Origin: Acidobacteriota bacterium
GTDB lineage: Bacteria > Acidobacteriota > Terriglobia > Terriglobales > Acidobacteriaceae
Reading direction: 5' to 3'
NCBI GenBank assembly: GCA_021792135.1
Contig: JAJYVF010000016.1
Coordinates: forward strand, 1-64,000
DNA length: 64,000 bases
Shown: one piece after another, positions 2,579 to 32,436 of the stretch
How positions within the stretch are numbered: position 1 is the stretch's first letter
Layout: each line of letters begins with the position of its first letter
Translations under genes and position numbers: made by a program
Notes under the pieces: model-generated
Database searches by the model: none
The model's input: only the letters and a program-made list of their open reading frames with translations
Told to the model about the DNA's origin: nothing

Positions 2579-4258
2579 ATGGCGGAGCCGGTGATCCGCA
2601 CCAGACTTTATGGTTTTACCCTGCTGAACCACCCCCGCCTGAACAAAGGCACCGCATTCACAGAAGCAGAGCGCGACGCCTTTGATCTGCACGGTCTCCT
2701 TCCCCCGCACGTGGGCACCATCGAGGAACAGATCGCCCGCCGCAAGAAGGTCTTCGATCAGATGAAGACCCCTTTTGAGAAGTACACCTTCATGCGCGAT
2801 CTGCAGGACACCAACGAAACCCTCTTCTACGCTCTGGTGACCTCGTATATCCGGGAGATGATGCCGATCGTCTACACGCCCACCGTCGGCGAAGGATGCC
2901 AGCGCTTCAGCGAAATCTGGCGCAAGCCGCGTGGACTCTTCCTGAGCTATCCCAACAAGGACCGCATGGAGAAGATCCTTTCTCATCAGCGCTACGACAA
3001 CGTGAAATGTATTGTGGTCAGCGACGGCGAGCGCATCCTCGGCCTCGGCGACCAGGGCGCAGGCGGCATGGGGATTCCCATCGGCAAGATGGCGCTGTAC
3101 ACCGCCCTGGGCGGCATCCATCACGAATACTGCCTGCCGCTGCTGCTCGACGTGGGCACCGACAACGAGGAGCGGCTCGCCGATCCCATCTACATCGGGT
3201 GGCGGCATAAGCGCGTGCGCGGGAAGGAGTATGACGAGTTCATCGCGAGCTTCGTCTCTGCGGTGGAGCGCCGCTGGCCCCATATCCTGCTGCAGTGGGA
3301 AGACTTTGCCGGAGCCAACGCCGCCCGCCTCCTGAAGCGCTACCGCGACCAGCTCTGCACCTTCAACGACGATATTCAGGGAACGGCGGCCGTGCTGCTG
3401 GCAACGCTGCTGGCGGCGGTGAAGTCGGCGGGCACACGACTGCGCGATCAGCGGATCGCGATCCTCGGCTTCGGTTCGGCCGGCATCGGCATCGCCAACC
3501 TGCTGATCAGAGCCCTCCAGGATGACGGGCTCAGCGAGCAGGAGGCCCGCGGGCGCATTTTTCCCATTGGCCGCCCCGGGTTGCTGATCGAGGGCTGTGA
3601 GGGCATCCACGAGGAGCAGCGCGAGTTTGTCCGGCCGCGCGGCAATGTCGACGGCTGGCAGGTGACGGACGTGAACCACATCGGCCTCGAAGAGGTGGTG
3701 CGCAACGGAAAGATCACTGTGCTGATCGGCGTCGCCGGCAAGGGGGGCATGTTCACCGAGGAAGCCGTGCGGGCGATGGCGAAAAATGCCGAGCGGCCGA
3801 TCATCTTCCCGCTCTCCAATCCCACCTCAAAGAGCGAAGCCACTCCGGAGGACCTGCTGAAGTGGACCGAGGGCAAGGCGCTGGTCGGAACGGGAAGCCC
3901 CTTCGAGCCGGTGAAATTCGATGGCCGCGAAATCTGCATCGATCAGACGAATAACTCCTATGTCTTCCCGGGGCTGGCGCTGGGTATCGTCGCCTGCCAG
4001 GCAAAGCGCGTTTCGGACGCGATGATCATGACGGCGGCGAAGGCGCTGGCAGGACTTTCCCCCGTCGAACAGGACCGGAACGGCAATCTGCTGCCTCCGA
4101 TGGCAAAGTCGCGGGAACTGAGCCGGGTGATTGCCGCGGCCGTGGCCCGGCAGGCCATTGTGGAGGGCCTGTCCGATCTCAGGGAGGATCAGGTCGCGGA
4201 TGCAATCGCGGCGAATGTCTGGGAGCCGAAGTATGTGCCGTACGAGCGGGAGTATTGA
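2579..4258 (+). CDS. maeA: NAD-dependent malic enzyme
   Basis: This 559-aa cytoplasmic enzyme oxidatively decarboxylates malate to pyruvate and links the TCA cycle to gluconeogenesis. The N-terminal malic domain shows YTPTVGEGCQRFSE near residue 98 and GLGDQGAGGMGIPIGKMALY. The metal-binding EDFAGANA is followed by FNDDIQGTAAV. The NAD-binding fold has ILGFGSAGIGIANLL and the late motif FPLSNPTSKSEATPED. The length matches the large E. coli MaeA/SfcA-type enzymes rather than the short bacterial form. The ATG at 2579 has TGGAGG a few bases upstream. NAD rather than NADP preference is inferred from the family. Confidence 0.95.
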   Translation: MAEPVIRTRLYGFTLLNHPRLNKGTAFTEAERDAFDLHGLLPPHVGTIEEQIARRKKVFDQMKTPFEKYTFMRDLQDTNETLFYALVTSYIREMMPIVYTPTVGEGCQRFSEIWRKPRGLFLSYPNKDRMEKILSHQRYDNVKCIVVSDGERILGLGDQGAGGMGIPIGKMALYTALGGIHHEYCLPLLLDVGTDNEERLADPIYIGWRHKRVRGKEYDEFIASFVSAVERRWPHILLQWEDFAGANAARLLKRYRDQLCTFNDDIQGTAAVLLATLLAAVKSAGTRLRDQRIAILGFGSAGIGIANLLIRALQDDGLSEQEARGRIFPIGRPGLLIEGCEGIHEEQREFVRPRGNVDGWQVTDVNHIGLEEVVRNGKITVLIGVAGKGGMFTEEAVRAMAKNAERPIIFPLSNPTSKSEATPEDLLKWTEGKALVGTGSPFEPVKFDGREICIDQTNNSYVFPGLALGIVACQAKRVSDAMIMTAAKALAGLSPVEQDRNGNLLPPMAKSRELSRVIAAAVARQAIVEGLSDLREDQVADAIAANVWEPKYVPYEREY

Positions 4259-27367: not shown

Positions 27368-28597
27368 TCAGCCGGGCTGATCCGGTTGCAGCACGGCGCA
27401 GATCGTCTCCACTCCGAGGCGAAAATCCGTCTCCGGCGCCAGCAGGCTGAGGACCAGCCAGCCGCTGGCCGCGAAGCCAAAGAAATATCCGGGGTGCACG
27501 GAAACCCCGCGTTCGACCAGGCGGAGGGCAAGATCCTCATCCGCTTCGAGGGCCGGAACCCGGAGGATGGCATACCATCCAGCCTCCACTGCGAGGCGGG
27601 TGAGGGCCGGATGGGGGCGAAGGACCCGATCGAGAGTGCGCAGATTCGCGGCAGTGCGGTTGCGAATCTGTGTCTGCAGGCCGTGGCACTGCGCCAGCCA
27701 GGCCGGCAGGGCCCACTGCACGGGAGCATTCATGGAGAGAAAGGTGTCGGCGACCACTTCCAGGCGAGCCAGGGCAGCGGAGAGCTCCGGTTCGGGGCCG
27801 AAGGCTGCGATCCACGCGGCTTTCATCTGGGGGAGAGCGGCGATCTTACTGATGCCGCTCAGGACAAAGGTGAGGGTGGGAGGCCGCGGCGGCGCAGGTT
27901 CAGCGGAGCCGGGGAGCGGGGGCAGGGCTGCAGCGAAGCTCCTCGCCTCGTGTCCCGCAAAGGGGAAATCGAGAAAGACCTCGTCGACAATCAGCGCCAG
28001 GCCGTGTTCTGCGCAAATCCGCTCAAGCTCACGCCGTTCGCCGTCAGGGGTGAAGTGGCCGGTGGGATTATTGGGATGGACCAGAGCAATGGCACGGGTG
28101 CGCCGGGAAATTCGCCGGCGCAGGGCCTCAAAATCAATCTGCCATGCGTGGTCATAAAGGAGCGGCCAGGGAACCAGGCGCACATCCTCGATCTGCGCGA
28201 GAAAGTCGAAGAGGGGATAGCTGGGCTGTGCGATGAGCACTTCGTCACCTGCATCGCAGAGGAGCCGAAAGAGCCAGCTATAGGCCTCGCTGGTGCTGGT
28301 GGCAAGGAGAACCCGGTCGGGTGAGACGGGCGCGCCGCGGGCTGCGTAGTATTCGCAGACGGCCTGCCGTGCCTGGAGAATGCCGCGGGGCTCGGGATCG
28401 TAGCGAAGGGCGCGCTCATCGGCGAGGGCAGCGAGGATCCCGGCCGCATCGTATTCGAACCCGCAATGCGTGGGATTGGAAGCCGTCAGATCGAATATGG
28501 GCCTGCCGGCGGCGCGCCGCCGGCGCAACGCCTGGGCCAGCGGGGTCTCTGCCAGATCCCACTGGGTCCTCGCGGAAAACCGCACGTTATCTGCCAT
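27368..28597 (-). CDS. PLP-dependent class I/II aminotransferase
   Basis: A 409-aa fold-type I aminotransferase. DLTASNPTHCGFEYD, RALRYDPEPRGI and the cofactor loop LLATSTSEAYSWLFRLL open the protein. ALVHPNNPTGHF holds the conserved Asn that contacts PLP, and LIVDEVFLDFPF the Asp. The Schiff-base Lys is in LSGISKIAALPQMKAAW. The amino donor is unknown; such proteins range from alanine to aromatic aminotransferases. The ATG at 28597 overlaps the MarR gene by 11 bases, with GGAG ten bases upstream, so it is the last gene of an ICMT-MarR-aminotransferase operon. Confidence 0.88.
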   Translation of the reverse strand: MADNVRFSARTQWDLAETPLAQALRRRRAAGRPIFDLTASNPTHCGFEYDAAGILAALADERALRYDPEPRGILQARQAVCEYYAARGAPVSPDRVLLATSTSEAYSWLFRLLCDAGDEVLIAQPSYPLFDFLAQIEDVRLVPWPLLYDHAWQIDFEALRRRISRRTRAIALVHPNNPTGHFTPDGERRELERICAEHGLALIVDEVFLDFPFAGHEARSFAAALPPLPGSAEPAPPRPPTLTFVLSGISKIAALPQMKAAWIAAFGPEPELSAALARLEVVADTFLSMNAPVQWALPAWLAQCHGLQTQIRNRTAANLRTLDRVLRPHPALTRLAVEAGWYAILRVPALEADEDLALRLVERGVSVHPGYFFGFAASGWLVLSLLAPETDFRLGVETICAVLQPDQPG

Positions 28598-29072
28598 CCA
28601 GCAGCTTCTCCAGCGTATCCAGACCGATACGCGCCGCCCTGCGCTCCTCGGGAGATGCGCGGCGGAGGGCATCCACGAGAGGGTGGAGCGTCATCTCGGG
28701 CACGCGTCTCCGCATAAAGTCGCGCACCGCGCCGGAGACGCGCACCTGGGTCACGCGCCGATCTTCCCTGAGCGTATGCCGTTCCACCAGACCGCGCTTC
28801 TGCAGGCGGTCCACGATGCCCGAGACGGTGCTGTGCGCCAGGCTTACGGCCGCGCTGAGCTCTTTCAGGCTCATCCCCTGCGACCGGATGAGAGCCTCCA
28901 TCACCAGCCGCTGCGGTCCGGTGATTTCGCCCTTCGCGTATTCGGCCTCCAGTTGCCGCTGCAGAATGCGACGGATTCCGTTGAGCTGGGCCTCGAAGCG
29001 CCGGGCGAGAGCGCGCAGGGGTTCGTCATCGGCGTGTGCGTGTCCGCGGGTGCGCAGTGTGTCAGAAGACAT
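28587..29072 (-). CDS. MarR family transcriptional regulator
   Basis: A 161-aa winged-helix dimeric regulator. An N-terminal dimerisation helix precedes the DNA-binding domain with LVMEALIRSQGMSLKELSAA and VSLAHSTVSGIVDRLQKRGL (recognition helix), then the wing VERHTLREDRRVTQVRVS. The C-terminal helices complete the dimer interface. It is the middle gene of a three-gene operon, overlapping both neighbours by 11 bases. MarR proteins usually repress their own operon and let go on binding a phenolic or lipophilic ligand; the 28-bp palindrome at 29665-29692 is the obvious candidate operator. Confidence 0.93.
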   Translation of the reverse strand: MSSDTLRTRGHAHADDEPLRALARRFEAQLNGIRRILQRQLEAEYAKGEITGPQRLVMEALIRSQGMSLKELSAAVSLAHSTVSGIVDRLQKRGLVERHTLREDRRVTQVRVSGAVRDFMRRRVPEMTLHPLVDALRRASPEERRAARIGLDTLEKLLDGR

Positions 29073-29640
29073 AGGGAACCAGGGCCCGGACTTCCCTGCG
29101 ATAGCGCAAATACTCTTCGCCGAACTGGTCGAACATGAACTGCTCCTCGGTGCACAGCTTCAGCCAGAAGCCGAAGGCGCAGACCGGGATCGCGATGAAG
29201 CTGTGCAAGAACCCGCGGGTAAGCGCCGATCCCGCCAGCCCAAGGAGAATTCCGGTATAGATGGGGTGGCGCACGATGCGATAGGGGCCTCGCCGTACGA
29301 GGGTATGCCCCTCCTTGACGGTGACGGTCCCGCTCCAGTTGCCCCCCAGGGTCAGCCGCGCCCAGACAGCAAAAGCCAGGCCCGCGGCCAGAGCGGCGAA
29401 ACCGGAGATCGCTACGGCGGGCGTCACCGGCACCAGGGTTCCGTCGAGCCACGGATACCCGGTAGCTGTGCCGAACAGCAGCCATATACCGAGGCCAATC
29501 ACGCCGGCCTGCCAGAAGCGGGAACTGAGGGTCTGCCGGCGCAGAGTTCGCCGGGTCAGGAACATGCCCACAATCCAGATCAGCAGCATGGCGTCCCACA
29601 GGTACAGCGACCAGAGCCGCATTTCGCTGACAGTGTTCAT
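29062..29640 (-). CDS. Isoprenylcysteine carboxyl methyltransferase-like membrane protein
   Basis: A 192-aa polytopic membrane protein of the ICMT/PEMT-like methyltransferase group. Four to five hydrophobic segments precede the SAM-binding signature RRGPYRIVRHPIYTGILLGL, then EEQFMFDQFGEEYLRYRREV closes the C-terminal half as in the family. Members methylate a carboxyl, lipid head group or small lipophilic molecule at the membrane; bacterial substrates are mostly unknown. The ATG at 29640 has GGAG nine bases upstream. It is the first gene of the MarR operon, about 25 bases below the palindromic operator. Confidence 0.87.
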   Translation of the reverse strand: MNTVSEMRLWSLYLWDAMLLIWIVGMFLTRRTLRRQTLSSRFWQAGVIGLGIWLLFGTATGYPWLDGTLVPVTPAVAISGFAALAAGLAFAVWARLTLGGNWSGTVTVKEGHTLVRRGPYRIVRHPIYTGILLGLAGSALTRGFLHSFIAIPVCAFGFWLKLCTEEQFMFDQFGEEYLRYRREVRALVPYVF

Positions 29641-29664: not shown

Positions 29665-29692
29665 TGTCGTATACGACGCGTCGTATACGACA
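29665..29692. promoter_or_regulatory. Perfect 28-bp palindrome, probable MarR operator
   Basis: Two copies of the self-complementary GTCGTATACGAC are separated by GC and flanked by T and A, so the whole 28 bp is also a perfect palindrome. It ends 24 bases before the ICMT-like start, where it would overlap or abut the promoter. The size and double-dyad layout suit binding by two stacked MarR dimers encoded two genes down. The regulation is inferred, the symmetry is exact. Confidence 0.88.
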
Positions 29693-29730
29693 ATGGTAAC
29701 GCCATCCGTCCGGCCCCGCAAGCCCGCTCC

Positions 29731-29744: not shown

Positions 29745-29812
29745 AAATCCGCGCGGGCACCAGCGACACCGGACGCCCTGGTCTCCGATAATGGATGGAG
29801 GGGGATCTTCAC

Positions 29813-30457
29813 GTGCCGATTCGCGCCGTTATCTTCGACTACGGTATGGTCCTGAGCAACCCACAGGATCCCGTTGCGCACCGCGACCTCGTCGCGATCA
29901 CCGGTCTGGCGCCGGATGCTTTCGAGCGCTTCTACTGGGTGCACCGGCACGAGTACGACCTCGGCAATCTCACCGGTGCGAGCTACTGGGCGCAGTTTGC
30001 CCGTGACGCGGGAATCTCCTTTACGCCGCGGCAGATCGAGGCACTGATCGAAAGCGATGTCATCATGTGGGCCTCGATCAACGAGCGGATGCTGGCCTGG
30101 GCCGCGGCTCTGCAGGACGCGGGCCTGGCCACGGCCATTCTTTCCAATATGGGAGCCGAGCTGCTGAGCTACATGCGGCAGGAGTTCGCGTGGCTGGGGC
30201 ACTTCACGCATCACACGTGGTCGTGCGAACTGGGGATCGCCAAGCCCGATCCGGCGATCTACACCTGGACGTGCGAGCAGCTGGGCGTTTGCCCCGAAGA
30301 GGCCTTGTTTCTGGACGACAAGCCCGAGAATATTCGGGCCGCGGAAGAAGTAGGGCTGCAAGCCATCCAGTTCCGCAATGTCGATCAGCTGCGGGCCGAG
30401 CTGCAGTCGAGGGCGCTGCTCCCGAATCTGCCGTTGCCCGAGGCGCTGACCGCCTGA
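29813..30457 (+). CDS. HAD-superfamily hydrolase, YihX-like
   Basis: A 214-aa cytoplasmic phosphatase-like protein of HAD subfamily IA. Motif I is VIFDYGMVLS, with the nucleophile Asp but Gly at the usual second Asp, as in the YihX/epoxide-hydrolase-like branch. Motif II is TAILSNMG, the Lys of motif III is in GIAKPDPAIY, and motif IV is LFLDDKPENI. Sugar phosphates are frequent substrates in the subgroup. I chose GTG 29813 because GGAGGGGG lies 8 bases upstream; the ATG at 29795 would fall before that site and only add MEGDLH. Confidence 0.85.
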   Translation: MPIRAVIFDYGMVLSNPQDPVAHRDLVAITGLAPDAFERFYWVHRHEYDLGNLTGASYWAQFARDAGISFTPRQIEALIESDVIMWASINERMLAWAAALQDAGLATAILSNMGAELLSYMRQEFAWLGHFTHHTWSCELGIAKPDPAIYTWTCEQLGVCPEEALFLDDKPENIRAAEEVGLQAIQFRNVDQLRAELQSRALLPNLPLPEALTA

Positions 30458-31215: not shown

Positions 31216-32436
31216 TTACCCGCGCTGATGCGCAGGCGCGGGCGTGGACGGTTCGGGAGCCGCTTGGCTGCCGCTGAGGGGCGGGATGCCGACCTGCTCC
31301 ACGATCTGGACGCTGAAGCCCTCGAGGGCGGGCACATGGGTCGGGGTGTTGCTGAGCAGCCGGATGCGGTGAATTCCGAGGTCGGCGAGAATCTGTCCGC
31401 CAAGCCCCACCTCGCGCAGGATGCGCTGATGACGTTCTTCGTGGCGCTCGCGTGCGCGGGCTTCGCGGTGGAAGACGATCCGGTTCGGCTCGGCCGCGCG
31501 ATCCACCTCAAAGCCGCGGCTGGCGTTGTGGAGATAGACGAGCGCTCCGCGGCCGGCGTCGGCAATCATGCGGAGCGACTCCTGCATGGTGCGGTAGCAA
31601 TCGCAGAGGGTGGTGCCGAAGACATCCCCCGCCAGGCAATGCGAATGCACCCGCACGAGGACGGGGTCCGGATCGGAGGCAGGGACGTCCTGGCGGACGT
31701 CCCCGCGCACGAGGGCGATGTGACTTTCCCCGCCATGGACCTCGCTTTCGTAGGCGATCATCCGGAAGTTGCCCCACTCGGTGGGCATGGTGCTTTCGGC
31801 GACCCGCACGACGTAGCGCTCGTGCTGGAGCCGGTAACGGATCAGCTCCGCCACGGTCAGCATCTTCAGCCCATGTTCTCTGCAGAACTCGATGAGGTCC
31901 GGGACCCGCGCCATGGTGCCGTCGTCCTTCATCACCTCGCAGATGACGCCGGCGGGAATCAGGCCGGCCAGGCGCGCCAGGTCCACGGATGCCTCGGTTT
32001 GGCCGGCGCGCACCAGGACGCCACCCTTGCGCGCGCGGAGGGGAAACACGTGGCCGGGACGGGCGAGATCATGGGCTGTGGAGCGGGGGTCGATGGCGAC
32101 GCAGATGGTGTGCGCACGGTCATAGGCGGAGATGCCGGTGGTGACGCCCTCGCGGGCCTCAATGGTCTCAGTAAAGGCCGTTCCGAAGCGCGAGGAGTTC
32201 TCCTGGGTCATGGGCCCGAGCCGCAGGTAGTCGGCGCGTTCTTCGGTCAGGGTGAGGCAGATCAGCCCTCGTCCGTAACGCGCCATAAAGTTGATGGCTT
32301 CCGGGGTGACGTGCTCGGCGGCCAGGGTCAGGTCACCCTCGTTTTCGCGGTCCTCGTCGTCGACCACGACGATCATGCGACCCGCCTTAATTTCCCCGAT
32401 CGCTCCCGGGACATCGATCATGACTGGATCGTGCAT
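31216..32436 (-). CDS. ribBA: RibBA-type protein: DHBP synthase with degenerate GTP cyclohydrolase II domain
   Basis: A 406-aa riboflavin-pathway protein. The N-terminal half is 3,4-dihydroxy-2-butanone-4-phosphate synthase, with [24 protein letters not shown] and [20 protein letters not shown], then [13 protein letters not shown]. The metal-ligand His of E. coli RibB (His153, in GHTEA) is Gln here. The C-terminal half keeps the RibA zinc Cys cluster ([17 protein letters not shown]), but the usual RQEGRGIGL substrate segment reads [13 protein letters not shown]. The stretch holding the catalytic Asp and Arg in E. coli RibA is shortened, and the chain ends early in a Pro/Ala tail. The RibA half is therefore probably inactive. 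The ATG at 32436 precedes family homology. No FMN riboswitch is seen upstream. Confidence 0.85.

Follow-up and report, generated by a model that had tools for sequence, protein, structure and literature searches.

The perfect 28-bp palindrome at positions 29665-29692 of the window, the 64,000-nucleotide stretch of acidobacterial DNA analysed here, is very probably the operator of a MarR-family protein whose gene is co-transcribed with the one directly downstream of the palindrome. In the full reading, which we hold with the same high confidence, the operator would consist of two adjoining dimer sites, each GTCG-N4-CGAC and spaced by 14 bp, placed just downstream of the promoter of a gene for an ICMT-like membrane methyltransferase. 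When ligand is lacking, the start site would be occupied by MarR dimers, which would keep both the methyltransferase gene and marR from being transcribed. MarR would be released by a small ligand, one that is probably lipophilic or aromatic and no thiol oxidant, and the membrane methyltransferase would then, with about even odds, methylate this ligand or its product. Operator, methyltransferase gene and marR together make up a two-gene cassette that takes up different sites in different genomes, and the promoter of which, in the lineage of the window, probably now reads into an aminotransferase gene.

The palindrome and its neighbouring genes

The first-pass annotation had described a perfect 28-bp double palindrome ahead of three genes that overlap one another by 11 bases, and both descriptions are exact. 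The palindrome, TGTCGTATACGACGCGTCGTATACGACA, is made of two 12-bp palindromes GTCGTATACGAC, taken on the minus strand as a promoter-proximal dyad at 29680-29691 and a promoter-distal dyad at 29666-29677, 14 bp apart from centre to centre, both of which align with 10 other loci. No perfect palindrome in the window is longer (the runner-up has 20 bp), and a random 5.1 Mb genome with 60% GC should hold about 0.03 palindromes of this length, the window itself having 64% GC. The exact 12-mer occurs twice in the 5.1 Mb genome, both times within 29665-29692. With up to one mismatch it is found at 11 places in the whole genome, the two exact copies included, against 21 for the reversed pattern used as control, which gives no hint of a larger regulon in this genome; within the window, up to two mismatches give 4 matches against 0.89 expected.

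On the minus strand the palindrome is followed, after 24 bp, by the ATG (29640) of a gene for a 192-aa membrane methyltransferase of the ICMT/PEMT superfamily (29062-29640), then by genes for a predicted MarR-family repressor of 161 aa (28587-29072) and a class I/II aminotransferase of 409 aa (27368-28597; PF00155, 111 bits). On the other flank lies a divergent resident gene for a HAD-family hydrolase (29795-30457, plus strand; PF00702, 45.7 bits). The ICMT/MarR and MarR/aminotransferase overlaps, at 29062-29072 and 28587-28597, are 11 bp each. The first is not generally conserved: at other loci the likely starts leave 0-54 bp between the two genes or make them share 1 bp, and G179 may have a 13-bp overlap if a particular start is taken. 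A perfect 20-bp GC palindrome, GCCGGCGGCGCGCCGCCGGC, lies at 28505-28524, within the aminotransferase reading frame. An Rfam scan of the window gave a single match, Vibrio AS9 RNA at 32231-32330, which is barely over its threshold (50.6 against 50 bits), lies opposite a ribBA-like reading frame and is probably spurious.

Conservation of the probable operator

Searches with the MarR protein led to ICMT-MarR pairs in G008, G028 and a Centralia MAG, and in all three the double dyad stands directly before the ICMT start. A profile, A1, was then built from eight MarR proteins, including four that had been found via the DNA pattern described below. In an even draw of 399 genomes of the class, a set without G008, it matched 9 genomes at E <=1e-20. 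New among these were G179 and G309, whose ICMT-MarR pairs have, in the same place after a TTGACA, double dyads in degenerate form (mismatched at 5 and 7 of 24 positions, respectively), and G300, which carries a MarR of the group with neither ICMT nor dyad; an operator of the same kind was sought at the G300 locus and not found. In a 396-genome draw of the phylum, the profile matched G000, G130 and G767. Thus seven further loci were found by protein alone, namely five ICMT-MarR pairs (G008, G028, the Centralia MAG, G179 and G309), G767 and G300, and the double dyad is present in six of the seven, in two of them in degenerate form.

The reverse route gives the same picture. The DNA pattern GTCGTATACGAYRCGTCGTATACGAC, with up to 3 mismatches, matched 6 of the 399 class genomes, and the reversed control matched none. 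Since G000 and G028 had served in designing the pattern, the independent matches are G366, G130, G061 and G186, and ICMT-MarR lies directly downstream in all four. Slightly relaxed, the pattern picked out of the 396 phylum genomes the same three as the MarR profile. Both routes together place dyads at 10/10 ICMT-MarR pairs and at 11 of the 12 loci of the MarR group, G300 being the one without; four of these 11 came to light by way of the DNA pattern. The hypergeometric p for the overlap of profile and pattern in the class, 3e-8, is a guide only and not independent, because profile A1 includes four proteins found via the pattern. Lack of the dyad next to homologous operons had been named in the first-pass annotation as one of two findings that would tell against its reading, and the comparison did not refute it. 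A search of viral contigs for the exact operator pattern gave no match.

At the G300 locus (L095 6230-7660), a different palindrome, TGCTCTGCAGAGCA, stands ahead of a YceI gene, and the MarR gene comes after this gene and a frame that appears aldo/keto-reductase-like.

The aminotransferase and the limits of the cassette

The first-pass annotation took the aminotransferase, a PLP enzyme, to be the third member of a functional trio, and this part of its claim is not supported. That methyltransferase, MarR and aminotransferase form a true three-gene system acting jointly on one inducer is in our view highly unlikely. Such a system is favoured by the two 11-bp overlaps of the window and by the identical MarR/aminotransferase overlap in G008, a genome listed in the window's own genus. 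However, among the ten ICMT-MarR loci, the aminotransferase is near the cassette only in the window and G008, the only two that have the HAD and aminotransferase flanks in common; at the other eight, tblastn did not find it within the stretch searched. The aminotransferase is also widespread, with matches at E <=1e-40 in 53 of 61 genomes (36-100% identity, not all of them necessarily orthologues).

In all six same-genus loci examined that have no cassette, the HAD and aminotransferase genes lie next to each other in divergent orientation, with 28-117 bp between them at five loci and 606 bp in G003. Among four genomes outside the genus, HAD lies beside the aminotransferase in G028 and G030 and not in G019 and G029, and in G028 the cassette and the aminotransferase are 0.95 Mb apart. 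Because HAD and aminotransferase adjoin each other in the sister genomes that have no cassette, and because of the distance in G028, the aminotransferase is probably a captured resident gene outside the conserved cassette. The conserved unit is operator, ICMT and MarR. The simplest history is that the cassette arrived between HAD and aminotransferase in the lineage of the window and G008; this direction of change is one that we infer, and we prefer it to loss of the cassette from the other lineages. Among 28 selected neighbouring proteins, the identified families vary between genomes, and several proteins have no Pfam match.

The junction itself may have received other DNA too, as G003 carries a different open frame there (L106, about 2700-3306), which presumably encodes a SnoaL/NTF2-like protein. 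The sequence TGTGAAAAGATG is found at the aminotransferase start in five of the six cassette-free sister loci (L102-L107), further upstream in L106, and is missing at the junction in the window and G008.

The tie between operator and MarR

The dyad follows MarR, as seen in G767, a genome outside the class that has no ICMT within 12 kb of its MarR gene. There a double dyad with one mismatch sits between MarR and a divergent gene for an FtsX/MacB-type permease, with a soluble SAM methyltransferase gene 8 bp after the permease (L098 4203-6560). Controls agree with this. In a set of 30 ICMT loci, one per genome and drawn from a longer list, the three with MarR have 0-1 mismatches of 24 upstream, while the dyad is absent at all 27 that have no MarR match (9-14 mismatches of 24; three of the 27 offered only 141-279 bp to search). 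Likewise it is absent at 27/27 distant MarR loci, where the best match over about 2-3 kb each has 8-11 mismatches, and from 500/500 random 360-bp windows clear of operators (9-14 mismatches). The earlier suggestion that the palindrome is MarR's own operator is thus borne out as far as comparison of loci can carry it: the dyad is kept before ICMT-MarR pairs and beside the ICMT-less MarR of G767, and both control groups of 27 loci lack it.

One could instead suppose that the operator is bound by another regulator that controls such operons, MarR being merely a target gene. We consider this very improbable, given that the dyad lies beside MarR even without ICMT, is missing from the 27 MarR-less ICMT loci, and no further sites are indicated in the genome of the window.

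Predicted promoter and repression

In 7 of the 11 loci, TTGACA lies 31-32 bp ahead of the operator, and a start site is for this reason predicted within the first dyad, which should allow simple steric repression; bound repressor would probably cover the start site. By comparison with these loci, the window has a weak -35-like TTGCGG (29716-29721, minus strand) and, 17 bp from it and 1 bp before the first dyad, a putative -10-like TACCAT (29693-29698, minus strand). This best promoter pair of the window, TTGCGG-N17-TACCAT, is itself weak, departing from the consensus at 5 of 12 positions. Across the loci the -10 hexamers are weak, and G008 and G130 are without a clear -35. The gap between promoter and operator is 0-4 bp in 10/11 loci and 7 bp in G130, values that are partly built in, as the scan was restricted to pairs whose end lies 0-8 bp upstream of the operator.

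In layout, GTCG-N4-CGAC is similar to TTGA-N4-TCAA, which is our own reading of the consensus TTnAAnnnTCAA given for SCO3205 (PMC3737563), and this resemblance favours one MarR dimer per 12-bp dyad. Conservation alone fits two unit dyads and a dyad bridging them alike.

Several points count against the operator reading. G300 has no dyad, the dyads of G179 and G309 are degenerate, and the promoter of the window is weak. MarR footprints are about 20 bp, and at a spacing of 14 bp two of them would overlap.

It is likewise very improbable, in our view, that the palindrome acts as RNA, by forming a hairpin in the 5' leader, or that a mobile element has its end or its target there. In favour, a 28-nt palindrome could fold as RNA, and the site of the cassette varies between genomes. 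Against this, the conserved form resembles a tandem repeat of short dyads (with three 14-bp units in tandem in G186), and the two pairs nearest the centre of the 28-bp dyad are complementary in just 7/11 and 6/11 loci (G-T pairs, possible in RNA, being left uncounted). The predicted start falls inside the first dyad, and the exact 12-mers occur nowhere else in the genome, so that a second copy at the other end is lacking.

The MarR protein and its ligand

The winged-helix domain of the MarR protein scores above the Pfam cut-offs (PF01047, 41.8 against 24.6 bits; PF12802, 42.7 against 27 bits), and its best PDB profile match is 2rdp (E 3.2e-15). An AlphaFold monomer has a MarR-like fold (mean pLDDT 79, pTM 0.51). 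Among the 50 structure matches shown for this model, TM is <=0.53 and rmsd 7-17 A, and for this reason we draw no binding geometry from it. The closest named match to the protein is in an Acidobacteriaceae MAG (JASHNW010000090.1, isolate JOPF007), and in a search of plasmids two Cupriavidus records matched it, with 32.7% identity across 70% of its length.

For the MarR family, the default inducer is a small molecule. The group was also held against the OhrR-type redox sensors, which have a conserved sensing cysteine. Nine of the 12 proteins, that of the window included, have no cysteine at all, and the remaining three have 1-2 at differing positions; as the proteins share no cysteine, an OhrR-type redox switch is unlikely.

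The ICMT-like methyltransferase

Pfam scores above the cut-offs (PF04140, 47.6 against 24 bits; PF04191, 47 against 25 bits) place the methyltransferase in the ICMT/PEMT superfamily. It has a PDB profile match to 4a2n (E 2.4e-23), which we take to be the Methanosarcina ICMT, and shares the PF04140/PF04191 core with the superfamily structures 4a2n and 5vg9; the invariant positions GPY, RHPIY and E are kept in 8/8 aligned ICMT-like proteins. It differs from the isoprenylcysteine enzymes of this superfamily in scoring 87.1 bits against an equivalog cut-off of 160 for protein-S-isoprenylcysteine O-methyltransferase (NF040696). Neither is it a member of the MddA methanethiol S-methyltransferases (NF045656; 31.1 bits against 270), to which it is a distant ICMT-like relative.

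A likeness to the window is offered by bpsA-bpsB of Bacillus and by srsB of Streptomyces, with presumably ICMT-like methyltransferases whose presumed substrates are small lipophilic polyketides. As a difference, bpsB adjoins a type III polyketide synthase gene (PMC5686519), a family not found among the 28 neighbouring proteins scanned here. That the ICMT-like enzyme methylates a lipophilic inducer or its product seems to us an even chance. A membrane role instead of small-molecule methylation is left open by pC12 orf2, an ICMT-family gene with its closest sequence in Acidobacteria, reported to confer cold tolerance on its cloning host; the available portion of that report (PMC9717686) mentions neither MarR nor operator, which sets it apart from the window.

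In a tree of 10 cassette ICMT proteins and 27 others, it takes 4 label changes to account for the cassette proteins, and the hypothesis that they form one clade is weakly rejected (p-AU 0.043); ICMT genes may possibly have gained or lost the MarR partner repeatedly. G179, of another family, clusters with G366 and G309 (100/98), and this grouping suggests transfer between families.

A probable case of a known form of regulation, with an apparently new partner

That MarR proteins control their own genes by way of a promoter palindrome is textbook knowledge, and that part of the proposed system is ordinary. The apparently new part is the ICMT partner: a search of the open-access literature found no description of an ICMT-MarR operon or of a GTCGTATACGAC operator. 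A close likeness is SCO3205 of Streptomyces coelicolor (PMC3737563), which is also of the MarR family and has a pseudopalindromic 12-bp consensus and two operator sites upstream of its own gene. The sites of the window differ from these in being contiguous 14-bp units fused into a 28-bp palindrome, in an operon that encodes an ICMT-like methyltransferase.

A wider idea, which we put forward tentatively and think somewhat doubtful, is that MarR and its tandem operator form a portable ligand-responsive switch. Such a switch would move across sites in the Acidobacteriota and be joined to different genes for methylation or export, all answering one membrane-active compound, and would capture resident genes downstream. 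The partners so far are the ICMT-like enzyme in ten loci and, in G767, the FtsX/MacB-type permease followed by the soluble methyltransferase, a single case with a gene set that would suit the methylation or the export of a compound acting as toxin or signal.

The window also illustrates how gene overlap in a single genome can mislead, the aminotransferase looking like a resident beside a newly arrived cassette. For the bacterial ICMT-like enzyme, the cassette provides a testable regulator-operator pair with a 26-bp consensus, and the compound that releases MarR, once known, would point to the substrate of this enzyme.
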